Origin: Hydrogenovibrio kuenenii DSM 12350
Lineage (GTDB): Bacteria; Pseudomonadota; Gammaproteobacteria; Thiomicrospirales; Thiomicrospiraceae
Assembly: GCF_000526715.1 (NCBI RefSeq)
Contig: NZ_JAGP01000001.1
Coordinates: 1,426,001 to 1,490,000, forward strand
Direction: 5' to 3'
Length of the DNA stretch: 64,000 nucleotides
Positions 8,670-51,159 of this stretch are shown one piece after another. The stretch's first letter is position 1. The number at the start of each line of letters is the position of its first letter. Under the pieces are notes generated by a model. It worked only from the letters and a program-made list of their open reading frames with translations, had not been told where the DNA came from and did not search any database. Made by a program: the position numbers and the translations under genes.

Positions 8670-10517
8670 CTATCGAATTGCGCCGATTAAGGTGTCAAAC
8701 ATCGTTTTTGACGCTTGGATAATTTGTGCTGAGGCTTGATAAGCCTGCTGGAATTTCACCAAATTAGAGGCTTCTTCATCCAAATTTACGCCAGATAAGC
8801 TTTCACGTCGATCCGAGATTTGTTTTAACACATTAGTTTGTGCTATAGATTGCGACTGTGATGCCTGAACATAGTTACCTATATGGGTTGCCATTAAAGA
8901 ATAACCTCCCAAAATAGTTTGATCAGCTTTTCCATTAGCATCATTTAAAAGCAGTTTCTTATCTGATAAGTTCGCCAAATTGGCAATATTGGTATTGTCA
9001 CCAATTGCAGCTGCTGCTGGTACTTCATCACCAAGGTTACCATCGTTATTGGTATCTATTGGGCTTTGTCCTCTAGTGGCTAACTTATTTGTATCATTAA
9101 TCACTGTTTGAAAATTATCAACGATTGCTTGTTGCGGCTGAACCAAAAAAGAATCGCCCGTTTGCACGGTTCCAGCACCGACAGCACTAAAGTCAAAATT
9201 CAACCCATCAACTTCTCCAGAACCTCCTGAAGGAACAGTACCTAAAACTGTTGAAGGGTTTGCACGATCATAAACATCAAAATTACCACCCGAGTTAACT
9301 TTAATGACATATTCTCTTGCTTTTAAATCACCGATTGATTGATTCGCTTTATTTAAAATCGCTTCTTTGTCAGCCATTGTTGAGGGCTGCGTTGCAGGAG
9401 TATAAGGTGGTGAACCATTGTAACCAGTCATGGTTGCTATATTAGGTGAAAAAGAGACCTTAATATTTGTTCCATCTTCAGCACCTGGAATGCTTGCATT
9501 CTTTGAGCTCGCATCAGCTGTCGTTGACATAGGTTGGAAAATGTTTCCACCCGCATCACCGTTATTATCATAACCTTGATAATGTTGCCAGTTAACGCCT
9601 GCGACCAAACCATTAAGCGTCAACCCTAATTCACTAGTGGTTTTATCAAGCATATTTTTACGGAAATTAAGCACAGCACCTAACTGGCCTTGCTGAATTT
9701 GGTCAGAAATCATGGTCTTCTGACCACTAATATCCATATACACTTCTGTACGATTTTCATCGGTAAACTCGGATTTATCAGCTTTCAAATGATTCACCGT
9801 GTTACTCGACACTAAAGGGTATTTTCCATTACCTGTGTAAACAACCATCTCGCCGTCTGACTGCTTAAATGTTTTTATATCCATATACTTACTCAACTCC
9901 ATGATAGCTTGATCACGTTGGTCTAGTAAGTCATTTGGCATCTGACCACCACTATTCGTAGCAATTGAAACTTGGTGATTGATTTGATAAATAGAGTCAA
10001 GCTGAGTATTGATCTTCTCTGTCAAACTGGTAATTTGATCATTAGCCTGATTTTTTGTGTCTGTCAATACAGTCGATAAATTACCCGCCATTGTTTGCAA
10101 ATTGTCTGCCTGGTTAATAACTTCCTGACGACTACTGGCACTTGTCGGGTTATTTGCAAGATCCTGAAAAGAGTTCAACATATTTTGTAAGAAAGTTTGC
10201 ACACCACCATCATTACTCGCCACAACACCTTCTACCTGCTGAGCAAGAGAAAGTTGCTCATCATAACGAGACTTCATGCTATTAGTGTTTACTAACTGAT
10301 TTTGAATATAACTGGCATAAATACGTTGAACAGATTGAACGGTTGAACCTCCACCAGTGTACCCTGCCGAAACCATGCCCGCTGAATTACTGACAATATC
10401 AGCTCTCTGACGGTTGTATCCATCTGTTGATACGTTGGCAACGTTGTTACTGGTAACTTCAATCGCTCTTTGAAACGCACTTGTCGCACTTGAACCGATA
10501 CTAAGTAAATCCGCCAT
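8670..10517 (-). CDS. flgK: Flagellar hook-filament junction protein FlgK (HAP1)
   Basis: First junction protein on the hook, exported by the flagellar type III system. The N-terminal rod/hook motif is present (LLSIGSSATSAFQRAIEVTSNNVANVSTDGYNRQ), as is the C-terminal helix SGVNLDEEASNLVKFQQAYQASAQIIQ. At 615 residues it is longer than the enterobacterial protein (about 547), with extra residues in the surface-exposed middle domain. It lies 20 bases after flgJ and 15 before flgL on the minus strand. Confidence 0.96.
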   Translation of the reverse strand: MADLLSIGSSATSAFQRAIEVTSNNVANVSTDGYNRQRADIVSNSAGMVSAGYTGGGSTVQSVQRIYASYIQNQLVNTNSMKSRYDEQLSLAQQVEGVVASNDGGVQTFLQNMLNSFQDLANNPTSASSRQEVINQADNLQTMAGNLSTVLTDTKNQANDQITSLTEKINTQLDSIYQINHQVSIATNSGGQMPNDLLDQRDQAIMELSKYMDIKTFKQSDGEMVVYTGNGKYPLVSSNTVNHLKADKSEFTDENRTEVYMDISGQKTMISDQIQQGQLGAVLNFRKNMLDKTTSELGLTLNGLVAGVNWQHYQGYDNNGDAGGNIFQPMSTTADASSKNASIPGAEDGTNIKVSFSPNIATMTGYNGSPPYTPATQPSTMADKEAILNKANQSIGDLKAREYVIKVNSGGNFDVYDRANPSTVLGTVPSGGSGEVDGLNFDFSAVGAGTVQTGDSFLVQPQQAIVDNFQTVINDTNKLATRGQSPIDTNNDGNLGDEVPAAAAIGDNTNIANLANLSDKKLLLNDANGKADQTILGGYSLMATHIGNYVQASQSQSIAQTNVLKQISDRRESLSGVNLDEEASNLVKFQQAYQASAQIIQASKTMFDTLIGAIR

Positions 10518-35032: not shown

Positions 35033-35062
35033 ACTTTGTCCTTTTACAGCGCCTTAAAACGC

Positions 35063-35106
35063 AAAAAGGCCCACCTAGCCTTACGACTAAGTGAGCCTCA
35101 TAACTC
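35063..35106 (-). promoter_or_regulatory. NasT-type attenuator in front of nasA
   Basis: Minus strand: GAGT-TATGAG-GCTC (35106-35093) can form a 4-base hexaloop hairpin, and its GCTCAC side is also the 5' arm of a terminator (AGGCTCACTTAG pairing CTAGGTGGGCCT, then five T). Same plan as the nrtA, FNT and chemoreceptor leaders. The two pairings are mutually exclusive, as needed for ANTAR antitermination. The rest of the gap to nirD shows no gene. Confidence 0.7.
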
Positions 35107-35274
35107 TTAACTTAAACTTTCTACTAATAGAGCTGGTTTTATTCCAACACTGGAAATTCCTATTTATTTCAATTAAATAGGTTATTTTTCAGCCCAAAAA
35201 ACAGTCTCTTAGTGAACACAAAAATTCACCAAAATACAGCTTTTGCACCAAGTCAGCACCATTTTGGAAACACC

Positions 35275-42992: not shown

Positions 42993-43110
42993 TTCCATTT
43001 CCTTTTGAGGTTGTTCCACATGTCTTGCCTGATTCGCCTATAAGACTTCGCTGCCTTTACGCTCGTCTAGTGATCGATTAATCCAGAGCAACAATCACTG
43101 AAAAAAAACC

Positions 43111-43173
43111 AAAAAAAAACGCCCACAGAATCCGTCCGTTTTTCATGACGAGATTCTGTGAGCGTCTATACTC
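43111..43173 (-). promoter_or_regulatory. NasT-type attenuator leader of nrtA
   Basis: Minus strand: GAGT-ATAGAC-GCTC hexaloop hairpin (43173-43160) overlapping a 15-base terminator stem (GACGCTCACAGAATC with GATTCTGTGGGCGTT) followed by nine T. The hexaloop has A at 1 and G at 4, the pattern known for ANTAR target RNAs. Confidence 0.85.
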
Positions 43174-43196
43174 TAAATTAATTTTGATATTTAATA

Positions 43197-43212
43197 AGAA
43201 ATCTCTAGGCCA
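43197..43212 (-). promoter_or_regulatory. TGG-N10-TTTCT promoter-like element of nrtA
   Basis: Minus strand TGGCCTAGAGATTTCT. Same 16-base frame as sigma-54 promoters but T replaces G in the -12 GC. Shared with FNT, nasT and the chemoreceptor gene at the same distance from their leaders. Beyond it, to 43354, I see only AT-rich sequence. Confidence 0.55.
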
Positions 43213-43354
43213 AACTAAATATATACAATATTTACAACAACTTAATAAAATTTAGCTCTAAAATCCTGTGCACTTTTCTTACCATATTTCAGCAATTGCA
43301 CTCAAATGTGCACCATAATAAATCACTGTTATTGAATTAAATAAGGGCAATTGA

Positions 43355-45082
43355 TTACTTTGCTAATAAAAACAGCACTAATAAAAGCAATATTAATGAA
43401 ATACTTTTCCAGAATAAAACAGGGTTGCGATCTATTAAGGGGGCTTGTGTCTTATTCAAATATGCTTGGTTGGGGTGACGTAGGTCATAGATAAATTCAG
43501 ATATTTCTCTGTATCTTTTTTGCGGCTCAGGCTGTAATGCTTTTCTCAAAGCTTCATCTATCCAGATAGGTGAATCCCGGTCTTCTTCAACAACTGAACG
43601 GTAGCGCAACTTTCGTTGGTCGGCTTTGGTGCGGGCTTTTGCAACCTGAATGCCATAAGGCAAACGGCCTGATAGCAATTGATAAGTAATCACCGCCAAA
43701 GAAAATTGATCGGAACGCGTGCTACCGACATCGCCCAAAAAATATTCTGGCGCAGTGTATTGAGCCGTACCTAACAAATCAGGTTGATTCAGCGGGCTGG
43801 TTATTTCTGCTAAGCCAGCGACCCTAGTTGAACCAAAATCAATAATTTTTACCGTGCCTTGCCGGTCGATCATAATATTATTCGGTCGAATGTCTTGATG
43901 CAGCATCTCCAAACGATGGAACGCGCGTAGCCCTTTTGCGATCTGCTCAACAATCTTTCTCACTGTTTCAACATCTGGTTTTGGGTTATCCAGCATCCAC
44001 TGCGCTAAAGTTTGACCTTCGATATATTCCGTCGTGATATAGAGATAATTTCTCTTTCGAGTCTGCACAATTGGTTTTAAAACATTTGCATGTTCAATAC
44101 GCCGAGCAATCCATTCTTCTAATAAAAATCTTTCCAGGTAGGCGGCATCATCACGTAAATCTATCGACGGTACTTTCAATATAACCTGCTGTTTGCTCTC
44201 CAAGTCTCTGGCCAGGAAAACATGGCTGCGACTGCTGTTATGAATATCTCGTAAAATTTCATAACCGTCAAACTGCATTCTTGCCTCTAATTGAGGTGGA
44301 AAAGGTAATGCCGTCATTTGCTGGTAGGCTTCACTCTCGTCATAATCGGGCAGATTATCTACCCGAACAATTTGAACAGTGAGGTTGTCATCACTCCCTT
44401 TTTGATACGCCTCATCGACAATCTTTTTTGCCGCAATATCCAAATCAACCTCATGCTGTCCAATCAGTTCAACCATTCGCTCATCACTTAAAAACTCATA
44501 AACGCCATCAGTGGTGAGAATGAATACGTCTCCTTTATCGAGTACATGAGTTTGATAGTCGATTTCCAACTGATCGTTCACCCCCAAAGCCCGGCTTAAA
44601 AAACTCTCTTCGCTTGACAGCCAAGTACGGTGATCTTCAGTTAATTGTTCAAGGGTATTTTGAGTAGCAGCAATACGATAGATACGGCTATCCCCGGCAT
44701 GGAATAGATGTGCTGTGGTCGATTTGAACACCACACTGCTAAAGGTACAAACAAAGCCTTTGTCCTTGTTATAACGATACTGGCTACGACGTGTTTGTGA
44801 AAATAGCCAGGAATTGATGGCTAGCAACACACTTTGTGCCGATGTCTTCACACGCCAGGCTTCTGACGTGCTGAAATAATCCATTAGAAAACCTTTTACG
44901 GCTGTTTCACTCGCTATCTGACTGACCTGACTGCTACTGATACCATCCGCCAAAGCGATAACGATGCCTTTGGAACTTAATAAGGGTTCTTCAGGAATAA
45001 GACTTCCATAAAAATCCTGATTAAGTGCCTTCCGACCTTTGTCCGAATATTGCCCGATTGAGACGTTGAGTTGCTTTGTCAT
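43355..45082 (-). CDS. PP2C phosphatase / Ser-Thr kinase fusion
   Basis: Bifunctional protein, 575 residues. PP2C domain (about 8-245): ALADGISSSQVSQIASE, HAGDSRIYRI, TTDGVYEFLSDE, GSDDNLTVQIV. Kinase domain (about 275-535): the lysine in VILKVPS, HQDIRPNNIM as the catalytic loop and DFGSTR as the metal loop. The glycine-rich loop is not recognisable (HNSSRSHVFLA). A hydrophobic segment at residues 551-573 anchors it to the membrane. Such fusions sit in nitrate assimilation loci of Pseudomonas (nirB / kinase / nasA), so a nitrate-related role is supported by context; the substrate is unknown. Confidence 0.9.
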   Translation of the reverse strand: MTKQLNVSIGQYSDKGRKALNQDFYGSLIPEEPLLSSKGIVIALADGISSSQVSQIASETAVKGFLMDYFSTSEAWRVKTSAQSVLLAINSWLFSQTRRSQYRYNKDKGFVCTFSSVVFKSTTAHLFHAGDSRIYRIAATQNTLEQLTEDHRTWLSSEESFLSRALGVNDQLEIDYQTHVLDKGDVFILTTDGVYEFLSDERMVELIGQHEVDLDIAAKKIVDEAYQKGSDDNLTVQIVRVDNLPDYDESEAYQQMTALPFPPQLEARMQFDGYEILRDIHNSSRSHVFLARDLESKQQVILKVPSIDLRDDAAYLERFLLEEWIARRIEHANVLKPIVQTRKRNYLYITTEYIEGQTLAQWMLDNPKPDVETVRKIVEQIAKGLRAFHRLEMLHQDIRPNNIMIDRQGTVKIIDFGSTRVAGLAEITSPLNQPDLLGTAQYTAPEYFLGDVGSTRSDQFSLAVITYQLLSGRLPYGIQVAKARTKADQRKLRYRSVVEEDRDSPIWIDEALRKALQPEPQKRYREISEFIYDLRHPNQAYLNKTQAPLIDRNPVLFWKSISLILLLLVLFLLAK

Positions 45083-45947: not shown

Positions 45948-46071
45948 AGCAAGCTCCTCAGTAAACTATGTAATCATGAAATACACCTCAGCCTTGGGGA
46001 TTGGCTTCCTTACCTCACCCCTGACTTGGCTTAATCATTAGCTCTAAAATTGGAAGTCATCAAAAAATTCC

Positions 46072-46134
46072 AAAAAAAAACGCCCACAGAATCACCTCGA
46101 AAAAACTCGAGGTATTCTGTGAGCGTCTACACTC
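46072..46134 (-). promoter_or_regulatory. NasT-type attenuator leader of the FNT gene
   Basis: Minus strand: GAGT-GTAGAC-GCTC hairpin (46134-46121) overlapping a long terminator stem (GACGCTCACAGAATACCTCG with its partner), then nine T. The terminator stem is close to 23 base pairs with one mismatch region. Confidence 0.85.
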
Positions 46135-46155
46135 AAAACTAATTTAAAAGTATTA

Positions 46156-46171
46156 AGAAACTATTAAGCCA
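46156..46171 (-). promoter_or_regulatory. TGG-N10-TTTCT promoter-like element of the FNT gene
   Basis: Minus strand TGGCTTAATAGTTTCT, followed 21 bases later by the leader hairpin, as in nrtA. Confidence 0.55.
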
Positions 46172-46215
46172 ACGAATATTTACATTGATATTTCATTAAC
46201 TTAGCACTTCCTCCA

Positions 46216-46260: not shown

Positions 46261-47421
46261 TTAATTCTGCACCAAAATAAAACGATCTTCCCCGATTTCT
46301 ACACCATCCAATAACCAGGGTTCTGCATGCACGCCTTCTTCTTTTCTATTCACCGAAGGGAGCTGAACACCTTGCTTTGACAGCACTGAACGATAAACAT
46401 CCGTCAAATACACTTCCTGTGCCGTCTTTTCAATATCTACGTCTTCTGGAATCTGATGCCAGCGCTTCATCTGAGAAAGTATCCACTCGGCATGTGATTG
46501 CCAAGGAAAATTCGCCAGATGCTTAAAGGGCGAAAAGAAATTCGGGATGTTTCGACAAGTGGAACAACTTGGGTTACAGACTTCACCATAAAAAGCATTT
46601 TTAATCGATTCTCTCGGTGCACCGACATATTGTGGTGAAGACAAATAATCACTGAGTGTTTCTCTATTTTCAACCTTATCGATCCATTCGCTGGCACGAT
46701 AAAGTGCCAAAATGAGTTTTTCATGAATTTCTGGGTTTTGTTCCGCCCAATCCTTGCGCACCCCCAGCACTTTGTCCGGTGCGTTGTTCCAAATCTCATA
46801 CCCGGTGATCAAGGTCACTCCCACTTTGCGCTTCACCGCATGCGTATTCCAAGGTTCACCCACACAATAGGCATCAATCAGATTTTCTTCCAGTGCTTGT
46901 ACCATGCTTGGCGGTGGTACAACGGTGAGATGCACATCCTTATCGGCATCTATCCCCCCTTCCGCCAGCCAATAACGCAACAAATACTGATGCATGGAAA
47001 ATGGAAACACGACTGCAAAACGTAACTTGGGCAAGCCTTGTTCTGCTCTGGCATCAATCACCTTCTTCAGTACACAAGCGCTCTTCTCGGGTTTCAAGAC
47101 CAGTTGAGATTCGTATTCGCTCATTTCTTCATAGAGTGCATTCGACACGCTGATGGCATTACCATTAACCGCAAATGAATAAGCTGTTACCAATGGCCTT
47201 TTGATACCGCCAAGCCCTAGTGTAGAAGACATCAACATAGGTGCTAGCATATGCGCCGCTTCATAAGCACCAAATACCAGTTTGTCGCGAATATTGGACC
47301 AGGACACTTCACGGTGAAGTTCTACATTCAGCCCTTGCTCTTCAAAAAAACCCTGCTCTTTTGCAACAATCAATGAGGCACAATCGTTAAGGGGTATAAA
47401 CCCGATATTAACTTTATCCAT
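46261..47421 (-). CDS. nasS: Cytoplasmic nitrate sensor NasS (NrtA-like)
   Basis: Nitrate- and nitrite-binding regulator, a homologue of NrtA without any signal peptide (starts MDKVNIGFIPLNDCASLIV). The ligand fold is shown by AYEAAHMLAPMLMSSTLGLGG, VNGNAISVSNALYEEM and [23 protein letters not shown]. Length is 386 residues. In the characterised NasST systems NasS holds NasT inactive until nitrate or nitrite binds. It lies 18 bases after nasT; GAGGAAG precedes its ATG. NasS was paired by context and by lack of signal peptide. Confidence 0.92.
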   Translation of the reverse strand: MDKVNIGFIPLNDCASLIVAKEQGFFEEQGLNVELHREVSWSNIRDKLVFGAYEAAHMLAPMLMSSTLGLGGIKRPLVTAYSFAVNGNAISVSNALYEEMSEYESQLVLKPEKSACVLKKVIDARAEQGLPKLRFAVVFPFSMHQYLLRYWLAEGGIDADKDVHLTVVPPPSMVQALEENLIDAYCVGEPWNTHAVKRKVGVTLITGYEIWNNAPDKVLGVRKDWAEQNPEIHEKLILALYRASEWIDKVENRETLSDYLSSPQYVGAPRESIKNAFYGEVCNPSCSTCRNIPNFFSPFKHLANFPWQSHAEWILSQMKRWHQIPEDVDIEKTAQEVYLTDVYRSVLSKQGVQLPSVNRKEEGVHAEPWLLDGVEIGEDRFILVQN

Positions 47422-47439: not shown

Positions 47440-48027
47440 TTACTCCAGTACGCTGATAATCGTTTCAGCCACTTCATACAACTTCTGATTACTGTCCATA
47501 GAACGCTTACGGATAGCCTCGTACGCTTCCTGTTCACTAACACCCTTTTGTGCCATCAATAAGCGCTTGGCTTTCTCGATCAGTCTATTCTGATCCAGTT
47601 CTGACTTGGTCTGTTTCAACTCGTCTTTCAAAGCCTGATATTCTCTGAAACGTGCAATTGCCACACTCATAATCGGCTTTACGCGTTCCATATCCACACC
47701 CTTAACAATATAACCGCTCACGCCTGATTTTATGGCTTCCTGAATCACGGTTTCGTTATCTTCGTCTGCAAACATCACTACGGGCAGCGGATTATGCTCA
47801 TTCAACAAGTACATACTTTCAAGAATATCTCGATCCGGTGATTCTGTATCAATCACAATCATATCCGGCATAATTTGCGCTACCTTCGCCAACAAGTTCG
47901 GCCCAGGTTCTACACGTGAAATCACTTCATAGCCATGATCCAACAACGCCTGCGACAAAATAGCAGAACGCCCGGAATCATTATCCACTAGCATGACTTT
48001 TATGGTTTCGTACTTGGTCTTAGACAT
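47440..48027 (-). CDS. nasT: ANTAR-domain antiterminator NasT
   Basis: RNA-binding antitermination regulator, 195 residues. A receiver-like domain covers residues about 10-125 (VMLVDNDSGRSAILSQALLDHGYEV, MIVIDTESPDRDIL, GVSGYIVKGVDMERV); the conserved Asp in DTES is present. The C-terminal ANTAR helices follow, with QNRLIEKAKRLLMAQKGVSEQEAYEAIRKRSMDSNQKLYEVAETIISVL. AAGGGA lies just before the ATG. First gene of nasTS, with its own leader terminator, divergent from the chemoreceptor gene. Confidence 0.95.
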   Translation of the reverse strand: MSKTKYETIKVMLVDNDSGRSAILSQALLDHGYEVISRVEPGPNLLAKVAQIMPDMIVIDTESPDRDILESMYLLNEHNPLPVVMFADEDNETVIQEAIKSGVSGYIVKGVDMERVKPIMSVAIARFREYQALKDELKQTKSELDQNRLIEKAKRLLMAQKGVSEQEAYEAIRKRSMDSNQKLYEVAETIISVLE

Positions 48028-48103
48028 TCCCTTGTCGCCTGTTTAAGTCACTCACATTCATGTTCAACTCGTCTTATTGGTTTACGTTTGGCTTACCAAA
48101 AAC

Positions 48104-48154
48104 AAAAAATGCTCATCCCTTTCCTCAATATACAAGGAAACGGTATGAGCATTT
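48104..48154 (-). promoter_or_regulatory. Leader terminator upstream of nasT
   Basis: Minus strand: AAATGCTCATACCGTTTCCT pairs with AGGAAAGGGATGAGCATTT, followed by T. The preceding TATAGAAATGCTCA resembles TATAGACGCTCA in the nrtA leader, so autoregulation by NasT is possible, although the hexaloop is less clear here. Confidence 0.65.
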
Positions 48155-48185
48155 CTATACTTATTTCATATTTACCTTTGATAAT

Positions 48186-48201
48186 AGAAACAACCAAACC
48201 A
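48186..48201 (-). promoter_or_regulatory. TGG-N10-TTTCT promoter-like element of nasTS
   Basis: Minus strand TGGTTTGGTTGTTTCT, the same 16-base frame as the other three. Confidence 0.5.
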
Positions 48202-48390
48202 ACTTCAAATTTATGTTTCAAAAACAATAGATTAAAATAAGAACTGCATTTTTTAACTTTTTTCTATTGCCTTTTATCATCCCATCTTGTCTCATCTTGG
48301 TGCAACCTGCCCTTTCCTGCTCAAATGATTTGGCAAACAAATTAACCACCACTTATATAAGCACTTGATTTGTATATGGTTAACCTTCTC

Positions 48391-48406
48391 TGGTTTAGAT
48401 ATTTCT
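48391..48406 (+). promoter_or_regulatory. TGG-N10-TTTCT promoter-like element of the chemoreceptor gene
   Basis: Plus strand TGGTTTAGATATTTCT, 19 bases before the leader hairpin. The rest of the nasT-chemoreceptor gap (48202-48390) shows no gene or clear structure. Confidence 0.55.
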
Positions 48407-48425
48407 TATCTGGTGTTTATAGTTT

Positions 48426-48492
48426 GAGTAAAGACGCTCACAGAAATTCGTTTGATACTAAATTCAAATGAAAACTTTGTGGGCGTTTTTTA
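48426..48492 (+). promoter_or_regulatory. NasT-type attenuator leader of the chemoreceptor gene
   Basis: GAGT-AAAGAC-GCTC hexaloop hairpin (48426-48439) whose GCTCACAGA also pairs with TTTGTGGGC to form a terminator (inner stem TTCGTTTGA with TTCAAATGAA) followed by six T. A at loop position 1 and G at 4 match the ANTAR target pattern and the nrtA leader almost base for base. Confidence 0.85.
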
Positions 48493-48528
48493 TTGGCGCA
48501 GCAAAAGCAGAAAGGGGTTTCAAACGTT

Positions 48529-51159
48529 ATGGAAACGCTAGAACAAGAAAAAGATTTTGAACATCTCGGCACACTGGTTATAAAAATGGACGCTTCAGGT
48601 GCATTACTCGAAATGAACGATGCATTTATAGAAGCCTGCGAATACGATCGCTCTGCACTTTCAGCAAATAACTTCTCCCAACTTATACATCAAGATACGC
48701 CCAAACGCTTAATAACAGATATCTGGCAAACACTCAAAGAAGGAAAACCATGGGTTCAGGTCTTAAAAATACAATGCCACAACGACAAATATATTTGGAC
48801 AGAAGCCAATATCGCGCCAGTATTAGAAAATAACAAAATCGTTGCAGCCCTTGCCGTACTCAAACCTTTATCCGATCAAACTTTTGTCCGCACAACTGAA
48901 CAAGCCACATCACTTTATAAGAAAATACGCCATGGTCACATTAAAAACGGTGTGCTCCTTACCCCCATGCAAAACCTGTGCTTATTCCATAAACTTCATC
49001 CCATTAACCTAATGGTAAGCAGCATTGCCCTGCTCGGTATAGTCGGCACACTGGTGCAACTGAACATCATAAATCTACCAGTCTGGGGTATTCCGGCACT
49101 CAATGCATTTCTCTTTATTTATGCTTTAGCGGGTAGAAAATACGCCTTTAATCGTTTGGGGAAAGCCAAAGTCCTTATCGATAAAATGCGTCAAGCCGAT
49201 TTTAATGGCCAGGTGGATTACTATGGTAACCACTCTTTGAGCAAACTGGTTTCTGCGGTCAAAATGATGCAAGTTCAGCTCGGTGCAACGGTTGAAAACG
49301 CCAAGGCGGAGCTTAACCACAGCACACGCATCAAATCTGCTTTAGACAGTGCCTCTGCCAATCTCATGATGATCAACAATAAAGGCAAAGTGCTGTACTA
49401 CAACAACGAATCCAAGAACTTTTTTCTACGCCATGCAGCAGCATTCAAACAAGCTTACCCAGACTTTAATCTCGAAAACTTAATCGGCCAATCCTTAGCA
49501 GGTGTATTCAAAACCGATATGTTTAACAAGCTAAGCAATAGCACGGAAGAAGTCGAAATCGAACAATCTTTTGCCAACCTATTGCTCCACCTTAAAATCA
49601 AACCCGTTTTCGATGCACAGCAGCAAATCATTGGCTCCGTCGTGCAATGGGAAGACCTCACCCAACAACGCAAGATAGAAGAAAACCTCAAGTCCACGTT
49701 ACAAATGGCCTCGTTAGGCCATACCGCTTTAACAATAGATACACAAGATCTATCCGGTTTCTTCTTGGACACATCCAACAATATCAATGCGCTACTGAGT
49801 GAACTGAATCAAATTATCGAAAGCATGGTCTTTGTGATGACCAAACTCGCCACGGGTGATTTGCAAGGCCGCATAGAGAAAAGCTTGCAAGGATCTCTTG
49901 CTGCGATGAAAGGCTCTACACACGTTTCATTGGATAACCTAAGTGCCATTGTTTATTACATCAAACAATCCGCTGAAATGGTCAGCACAGCCGCAAGCGA
50001 ATCTGCAAGCACTTCTCTTGATTTGTCCGATAGAACACAAAAAGCAGCCGCAGCACTAGAGCAAATCAACACCACCATGCAAACCGTACACAGTCAGCAA
50101 ACTGAAAATACGCAAGAACTGATGCAAATCAATCAACTTGCAACCCAGACACTTGAGAAAAACGCTTTTGCCAAATCGGCACTCGAATCGACCGTTACCG
50201 CTATTGACGATATGCAATCCACCTCGGAAAGAATAGCCAACATTATCGGCATGATTGACGGCATAGCTTTTCAAACCAACTTGTTAGCATTAAATGCTGC
50301 CGTTGAAGCTGCCCGCGCAGGAGAACATGGCCGAGGATTTGCCGTGGTAGCAGGAGAAGTACGCACCCTTGCTCAAAAATCTGCTTCTGCTTCTGCCGAA
50401 ATCCGTCAACTCATTGAAGAGTCCATTGACAAGGTTCACCAAGGCGTCAACAAAGTTCAAGAAACTAACCAAGCATTTGACGAAGTTAACCAAAGTGTTT
50501 CCACCATCGGTAACTCTTTATCAGAAGTGGTTTCATCTATTGAACAACAGCAAACAGCCGTTGCCAGAATCGCCGAATCCATCAACTCTTTGGATGACAA
50601 TCTACAAAGTAACGCGGCATTGGTAGAAGAAACTTCCGCTGCAGCCGAATCACTAAAAGATCAAGCCGTGCTACTTAGACGAGAAACCGACAAGTTCACC
50701 ATAGACACACAAAGAGCCAAAGAGCTGATTCAAACCACACCAGATATTTCAGGCATACGCATCTCAGATGTGCGCCAATCCATGCGCATCTGGAAAGCCA
50801 ATACCCAAGCCTATCTGAACGGTGTCAATGTGCCTATCGACCTGGAACACATCTCCGACCACAAAGCCTCTGCCGTCGGCAAGGCCATGGCACAACTACT
50901 GCATTTCCAACCCAGTATCGCCAGTATGGTCGAATATCAGAAAATGGATAAACTACACGTGCATCAACATCAACTGATAGCTGAAATTCTTAAATTGATG
51001 GATCACAACAACGATGCCGAAAACCTCAAGCAAAAAGACGCTCTGCTCGATGAGTTCGTCGATACTTCCGATGCATTGGATGCCGCGTTAAAAGAGTTGG
51101 ATTTAGGCATCGCACATAACGCAGACGCTATACCCGTGCCCGCCCAACTCAGCGCATAA
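48529..51159 (+). CDS. PAS-containing methyl-accepting chemoreceptor, Aer-like
   Basis: Chemotaxis transducer, 876 residues. An N-terminal PAS domain (about 12-115, [22 protein letters not shown]), then two hydrophobic stretches (about 155-195) with no large periplasmic domain, as in Aer. A second PAS-like region spans about 268-385, and the signalling hairpin about 470-690 includes [43 protein letters not shown]-terminal CZB-like domain (720-800, [29 protein letters not shown]) seems to lack several zinc ligands. ATG 48529 has AAAGGGG upstream; the TTG at 48493 lies inside the terminator and is rejected. NasT control is indicated by the leader. Confidence 0.93.
49071..49090 (+). repeat. Dispersed CCAG-N-CTGG repeat, copy inside the chemoreceptor gene
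   Basis: AAATCTACCAGTCTGGGGTA differs from the legC copy only at the dyad centre (T for A). It encodes NLPVWG in a membrane segment. Confidence 0.5.

Follow-up and report, generated by a model that had tools for sequence, protein, structure and literature searches.

The window analysed here is a stretch of 64,000 nucleotides from Hydrogenovibrio kuenenii DSM 12350, whose assembly comprises 2.45 Mb in two contigs with a completeness of 100. Its minus strand carries a nitrate cluster made up of a nitrate-reductase-like nasA, a nirD-like gene, nirB, a nirB-like reductase gene, nrtCBA, a kinase-phosphatase gene, a formate/nitrite transporter (FNT) gene, nasS, and nasT, and a chemoreceptor gene departs divergently on the plus strand (Table 1). 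Family searches cover nrtA, the kinase-phosphatase, FNT, nasS, nasT, and the receptor; the other gene names of the cluster were read from the sequence. The kinase-phosphatase, located between nrtA and the nitrite transporter gene (43355-45082), joins a PP2C phosphatase to a serine/threonine kinase in one fusion protein and recurs beside nitrate genes in relatives.

Table 1. Features of the nitrate cluster and of the divergent chemoreceptor gene, in window coordinates
Feature	Position	Strand	Remarks
nasA leader	35052-35152	-	same class as receptor leader, related spelling; covariance model E 6.4e-9 (leader in training set)
nrtA leader	43104-43218	-	same class as receptor leader; pattern and covariance model
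FNT leader	46065-46177	-	same class; pattern and covariance model
nasS	46261-47421	-	nitrate/nitrite sensor, NMT1-like; named from homology and position
nasT	47440-48027	-	receiver and ANTAR; family search
Weak leader before nasT	48094-48207	-	same class; E 0.0098, hold-out model E 8.8e-4
TTGGTGCA, possible NtrC half-site	48297-48304	+	upstream of receptor promoter
Sigma54-like promoter TGG-N10-TCTT	48391-48407	+	before receptor leader; base -13 = T
Receptor leader hairpin GAGT-AAAGAC-GCTC (GAGTAAAGACGCTC)	48426-48439	+	single hexaloop, 4-bp stem, loop A1 and G4; putative antiterminator
Intrinsic terminator of receptor leader	48434-48491	+	overlaps hexaloop hairpin; 5′ arm 48434-48444, 3′ arm 48476-48486, T run 48486-48491; stem covariation across 29 leaders
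Chemoreceptor gene	48529-51159	+	876 aa; divergent from nasTS
PAS1, Aer-type	48559-48864	+	F, I, I, L in place of H53, R57, N85, R115; W70 retained
Two membrane helices	49000-49143	+	short outside turn; hydrophobic stretches in sequence; model helices 158-177 and 187-221
PAS2, Aer2-like	49351-49668	+	phmmer 3vol E 2.6e-11; 6ceq Z 15.5, rmsd 1.8, 103 aligned
MCP signalling domain	50137-50598	+	PF00015 E 5.9e-40
CZB-like tail	50746-51108	+	PF13682 E 0.073, below Pfam cut-off

The 3′ strand of the receptor leader hairpin is also the start of the terminator, and the two structures are therefore mutually exclusive. Folding of the 70-nt leader yields the terminator, with -28.5 kcal/mol compared to a mean of -9.4 for shuffled sequences (z -7.6), and the nrtA and FNT leaders fold in the same manner; the U run comprises six residues in the receptor terminator and nine in that of nrtA. 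The original prediction had described a GAGT-hexaloop-GCTC hairpin with an overlapping terminator resembling that of nrtA, which the coordinates, the folding, and a hold-out covariance model (see below) all confirmed. The promoter-like element that it had proposed to be common to the receptor and nrtA was likewise recovered as TGG-N10-TCTT. A loose form of this sigma54-like element precedes 27 of 29 aligned leaders, 16 to 26 nt 5′ of GAGT (a raw count), and none of the 29 rows departs from the second G of TGG or from the T in the downstream part. At position -13, G is normal in sigma54 sites; T occupies this position here and also in the nrtA and FNT promoter-like elements of the same genome, which encodes both sigma54 and NtrC. 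Farther upstream, TTGGTGCA is found in all three receptor upstream regions linked to nasTS, i.e., those of the source genome (G000) and of the same-genus genomes G001 and G010, at -129, -127, and -129 from GAGT. This box is a possible NtrC half-site, and GGTGCA is also found before the nrtA, FNT, and nasA leaders of the source genome, at -141, -139, and -143. The box before FNT overlaps the end of nasS, and TTGGTGCA occurs nine times in the window compared to 3.5 expected. As for the receptor start, the ATG at 48529 is preferred to the TTG at 48493 because the two nearest orthologues have their ATG at the aligned position.

A longer leader motif, GAGTNNAGACGCTCNC, occurs at three sites in the genome, before nrtA, the nitrite transporter gene, and the receptor gene. 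Allowing up to one mismatch returned exactly three sites, all of them exact and within the nitrate cluster, with one match for the reversed control. The short motif GAGT-N6-GCTC alone gave four matches in the window versus 1.1 expected; since 6 of 100 shuffles also reached four, it is not decisive. Before nasT, the hexaloop of the weak leader is degenerate in the source genome, and the nasT leaders of relatives were matched by the covariance model at E values of 4.8e-4 and 0.00175. In three Hydrogenovibrio genomes, nasT thus seems to have a weak leader of this class, through which NasT would feed back on itself. An Rfam search of the whole window at gathering thresholds returned only a tRNA and no other catalogued family.

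Membership of the receptor leader in the class was evaluated with a covariance model built from 26 leaders, receptor leaders excluded, and used to search 15 sources totalling 288,692 bases. This hold-out model recovered the receptor leaders of G000, G001, and G010 with E values of 1.2e-7, 1.1e-6, and 1.6e-6, the source-genome leader scoring 60.7 bits. It gave no match at three loci from ANTAR-less genomes, which counts as weak support because five loci from ANTAR-carrying genomes (L079, L080, L081, L086, and L087) were likewise silent. In the 29-leader alignment, 99.1% of the terminator stem cells are paired, and 6 of the 11 pairs have changed on both sides, compared to 0 to 3 pairs in a slid-stem control; the five pairs that never vary are uninformative, as their letters were fixed by the search pattern. 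We also scanned 35 loci and the window (1.30 million strand-bases) for a hexaloop of any stem sequence with a purine at position 1 and G at position 4, whose 3′ strand overlaps a terminator. The scan returned 25 places: 13 before nrtA, 4 before FNT, 1 before a nasA-like gene, 1 before an nrtA/nasS-like gene in G024, 5 before receptor genes, and 1 without such a link. These 25 places do not represent a genome rate, given that genes of these kinds guided the choice of loci and that some of the clusters are homologous. Many genes are preceded by a terminator, and a constitutive one could simply hold the receptor at a low level, its match to the hairpin being incidental. We consider such a coincidence very improbable, as 24 of the 25 places precede nitrate-type genes or the receptor, and the reversed control gave none and three block shuffles one each.

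A pattern search of 62 genomes of the family produced 30 matches in 17 of them, before nrtA (16), nasA-like genes (7), FNT genes (5), one receptor gene, and one siroheme-synthase-like ORF; the loop length allowed by the family pattern is exceeded in the G001 and G010 receptor leaders, which were found separately. A covariance search extended this to 44 matches in 20 of the 62 genomes, 29 of the 44 having served to train the model. Thirty-seven precede nitrate/nitrite genes, i.e., nrtA (18), nasA-like genes directly or after a nirD-like gene (10), FNT genes (5), NarK-like transporter genes (2), and single NirB-like and siroheme-synthase-like genes. The rest precede receptor genes (3), nasT (3), and one EAL gene in G061, where the match is weak and lacks a clean hexaloop. 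Some gaps between the gene of a second ANTAR protein (ANTAR2) and its EAL neighbor fold into plain terminator-like hairpins. An ANTAR gene is present in all 20 genomes with a model match, and none of the 21 family genomes without an ANTAR gene has one; 21 of the 41 ANTAR-carrying genomes have no match either.

The source genome encodes ANTAR2 beside an EAL protein at another site, and orthologous receptor genes follow an ANTAR2-EAL pair in four relatives (G029, G021, G076, and G033), so that ANTAR2, and not NasT, might be the regulator of the receptor. We regard this as unlikely: the receptor leader is of the nrtA class, G057 and G079 carry this class with nasT as their only ANTAR match, which points to NasT and not to ANTAR2 as the reader of such leaders, and the receptor gene is divergent from nasT. 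In G060, G062, and G071, which encode a long, NasR-size ANTAR protein, all seven leaders read GAGC..GCTC, with the pair kept and A at loop position 1. The loci L097 (6574-9393), L176, and L178 from genomes with a NasR-size ANTAR protein have the same leader class before nrtA. Two sensor types, NasT and the NasR-size ANTAR protein, may thus read one RNA class.

A pattern search of 369 genomes of the taxonomic class matched the source genome only, with one control match elsewhere; this sample includes three other family members, which also lack the family-search pattern. A scan of 84,980 species with the exact long-loop pattern, which would miss other leaders, identified three contigs. One, from Hydrogenovibrio sp. 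JE_KL2, has three matches with the same spacing as the leaders of nrtA, FNT, and the receptor in G001. The second belongs to a Beggiatoa MAG, where the pattern precedes a transporter gene that we interpret as NarK-like, and the third to a Thiotrichales MAG, where it precedes nrtA. No further receptor was returned by this pattern in these species.

We then compared 15 full-length receptor orthologues, namely, the source protein and 14 others that are 49 to 78% identical to it, leaving out a partial copy in G011. A search of the collection with the receptor protein itself returned no relatives (near records were possibly omitted). Only G000, G001, and G010 have a receptor gene beside nasTS with its own GAGT leader, and all three belong to one genus. 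Among the 12 orthologues beyond these, two have their own leader, six lie in nasTS-nrtABC or ANTAR-EAL strings, and four have neither, operons being read from gene order. The two leaders, in G033 (after ANTAR2-EAL) and G078 (after an EAL gene remnant), combine a GAC-stem hexaloop with a terminator. The receptor gene sits within a nasTS-nrtABC string in G061, G056, and G013 and follows ANTAR2-EAL without a leader of its own in G029, G021, and G076. It stands alone in G012, G018, and G031, which are the only ANTAR-less genomes among the fifteen; the fourth orthologue with neither tie, in G006, follows an EAL gene only, and the NasR-size ANTAR gene of that genome lies elsewhere. Of the 12 genomes that have both an ANTAR gene and the receptor gene, consequently, only five show a leader directly before the latter. 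The structural scan of the 300 nt upstream of the 15 receptor genes gave places in the same five (G000, G001, G010, G033, and G078); its thresholds were not blind, as the G033 and G078 leaders had been noticed before the scan was designed. The receptor tree scatters these settings, indicating that the ties to ANTAR genes arose or changed several times. The original prediction expected the hairpin to be present in close relatives that keep the gene. This was largely borne out. Both same-genus species with a nasTS-linked gene have it, but G006, also of this genus, does not: its orthologue is 52% identical, lies at another site behind the EAL gene, and has no leader.

Two closely similar leaders are located at distances of 2.3 and 5.3 kb from the receptor leader, which could be a recombined copy of an nrtA or FNT promoter and leader, left by rearrangement of the cluster and useless to the receptor. 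However, three species have retained it even though their receptors share only 77 to 78% identity. The 14-nt hairpin is identical to that of the source in G001 and G010, while the terminator loop differs in length and sequence, and the terminator arms differ too yet still pair. Moreover, the G033 and G078 orthologues are immediately preceded by a leader that also combines hexaloop and terminator but is spelt differently. A useless copy therefore appears improbable, slightly more so than regulation by ANTAR2.

Published ANTAR target RNAs contain two hexaloop hairpins, as described in PMC3369931 (section 10) and PMC8164766. The leaders studied here resemble them in the G at hexaloop position 4 (with A at position 1 in the receptor leader), in the terminator overlap, and in the presence of an ANTAR gene in the genome, but differ from these dual-hairpin RNAs in that no second hairpin was found upstream. 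Within the 45 nt upstream of 29 leaders, a search for a second (P1) hexaloop hairpin gave four candidates (3-bp stem, A1/G4) compared to 3.55 expected by shuffle, and none in the three receptor leaders; the start site used is a predicted one, and an unusual first hairpin is possible. The canonical two-hairpin layout was accordingly dropped for the receptor leader, in which only one hexaloop hairpin was found. Transcription from sigma54 promoters starts about 12 nt after the promoter element, and the position of the sigma54-like element upstream of GAGT would thus leave little room for a first hairpin. The loop is AAAGAC in all three nasTS-linked receptor leaders, and position 1 is A, G, or T across the class; G4 was fixed by the search pattern, yet it is also present in 15 leaders found without it (18 nrtA/FNT upstream regions). 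A single hexaloop hairpin may thus suffice for NasT-type leaders of this family, contrary to the two-hairpin rule, with consequences for RNA recognition by ANTAR proteins. The nrtA leaders at L084 (near 9756-9863) and L085 (near 8702-8804) have a hexaloop and an alternative hairpin without a T run, and perhaps use a non-terminator mechanism.

The receptor was originally described as Aer-like, with PAS, a membrane hairpin, and no sensor domain outside, and this plan holds, as only a short turn between the two hydrophobic helices lies outside. The full order is an Aer-type PAS, the membrane hairpin, an Aer2-type PAS, the MCP signalling domain, and a CZB-like tail. The assignment of the tail to the CZB family was dropped because the match in the source protein falls short of the cut-off and is weaker or absent in three orthologues; two His residues are invariant in the tail, the Cys is found in 7 of 15 orthologues, and no His precedes the Trp. 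PAS1 matches the Aer PAS domain (8dik) with E 2.5e-15 and 59.7 bits, and structurally with Z 18.7 and rmsd 2.1 over 127 aligned residues; the G012 orthologue reaches 140.6 bits. Confidence in the full receptor model is moderate to low (mean pLDDT 69, pTM 0.33). The protein therefore resembles Aer (8dik; PMC9668731) in its PAS fold, membrane hairpin, and MCP domain, and differs from it in the loss of four FAD contacts, the second, Aer2-like PAS, and the CZB-like tail. In PAS2, the residues aligned to the HKNPAH segment of Aer2, whose PAS binds heme through a His, include no His.

The FAD contacts of Aer include H53, R57, N85, R115, W70, and M69 (PMC9668731), and the contact T27, whose number does not map onto the chain, was left out of our comparison. 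In all three nasTS-linked receptors, H53, R57, N85, and R115 are replaced by F, I or L, I, and L. All four are kept in 9 of the 12 other orthologues and at least two in every one of the 12; two are missing in G061, two in G056, and one in G031. The FAD-stacking W70 is kept in 15 of 15 orthologues, and M69 is I or L in the nasTS-linked receptors and varies elsewhere. The source PAS1 is 38 to 45% identical to that of the twelve others, and the PAS1 of G012 is 47 to 75% identical to the ten compared. The proposal that the receptor senses energy or redox state consequently found no support: PAS1 is of the Aer type by homology, yet four FAD contacts are replaced, although W70 is retained. Given these losses, FAD redox sensing by the three nasTS-linked receptors is unlikely to persist and has probably been lost. 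Since this argues against an FAD redox sensor, control over how much receptor is present may be more important than a PAS1 ligand, or act alongside one.

The original prediction placed the receptor gene under NasT-type antitermination. What can be read directly from the DNA bears out its structural part, that is, the leader and its terminator overlap, the sharing of this class with nrtA, FNT, and nasA, the compensating changes in relatives, and the restriction to ANTAR genomes among the 62. Together with the ANTAR ties of the receptor in other lineages, these features point to the chemoreceptor gene as an antitermination-controlled member of the NasT regulon, to which we assign a probability of roughly 0.8. 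Transcription of the receptor would start at the sigma54/NtrC-type promoter and stop by default at the leader terminator. Nitrate or nitrite would free NasT from NasS, and free NasT would bind the single hexaloop hairpin and block terminator formation, such that production of the receptor would then accompany that of the nitrate transporters and reductase. This suggests that nitrogen supply decides when the receptor is made. If so, a chemotaxis receptor would be under a nitrate-controlled RNA switch and swimming targets would change with nitrogen supply.

Release of NasT by nitrate and its binding to a nas leader were shown experimentally in Paracoccus (PMC3795266). The H. kuenenii locus shares with the NasS-NasT/nasA system of Paracoccus denitrificans the nasT-nasS pair, a leader hairpin with a terminator-like hairpin ahead of nitrate assimilation genes, and an NtrC layer (PMC3795266 and PMC5424462); the NasT targets described there are metabolic, whereas a chemoreceptor gene also carries the leader here. 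A chemotaxis transducer had been proposed as a novel kind of ANTAR target. This needs qualifying, as a putative ANTAR RNA over the start and ribosome site of a gene for a methyl-accepting chemotaxis protein already appears in the Figure S3 legend of Ramesh et al. 2012 (PMC3369931). In that case, a translational mechanism was proposed and left untested, while here the leader overlaps a terminator and is common to nitrate genes. The word chemotaxis is absent from the main text of the Bradyrhizobium NasT regulon paper (PMC6759348), and no NasT-controlled chemoreceptor is described among the literature matches listed, which cover titles and abstract openings with subscription journals mostly outside. 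Nitrate control by NasS-NasT (PMC3795266, PMC5424462) and one putative chemoreceptor ANTAR target (PMC3369931) are thus already known. New among the matches listed are the conserved terminator-type leader common to nitrate genes, its single hairpin, the recurrent association of one receptor family with ANTAR genes, and the flavin site loss that goes with it.

A broader scenario, which we put forward only tentatively and think more doubtful than not, is that the receptor lineage was drawn under ANTAR antitermination more than once, through a leader of its own, a nasTS-nrtABC string, or an ANTAR-EAL pair, and that the flavin site decayed in the nasTS-leader branch, the nitrate signal reaching taxis through receptor amount and not through a PAS ligand. 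If true, ANTAR-EAL-receptor strings would be compact modules through which nitrogen supply is coupled to c-di-GMP and swimming. Pairs of ANTAR2 and an EAL protein of the c-di-GMP phosphodiesterase type are found at L099 (7284-9268), L079 (1550-6090), L080, L081, and L082. In these ANTAR2-EAL pairs the EAL and DDFG motifs are present, and the receptor gene follows in four genomes.
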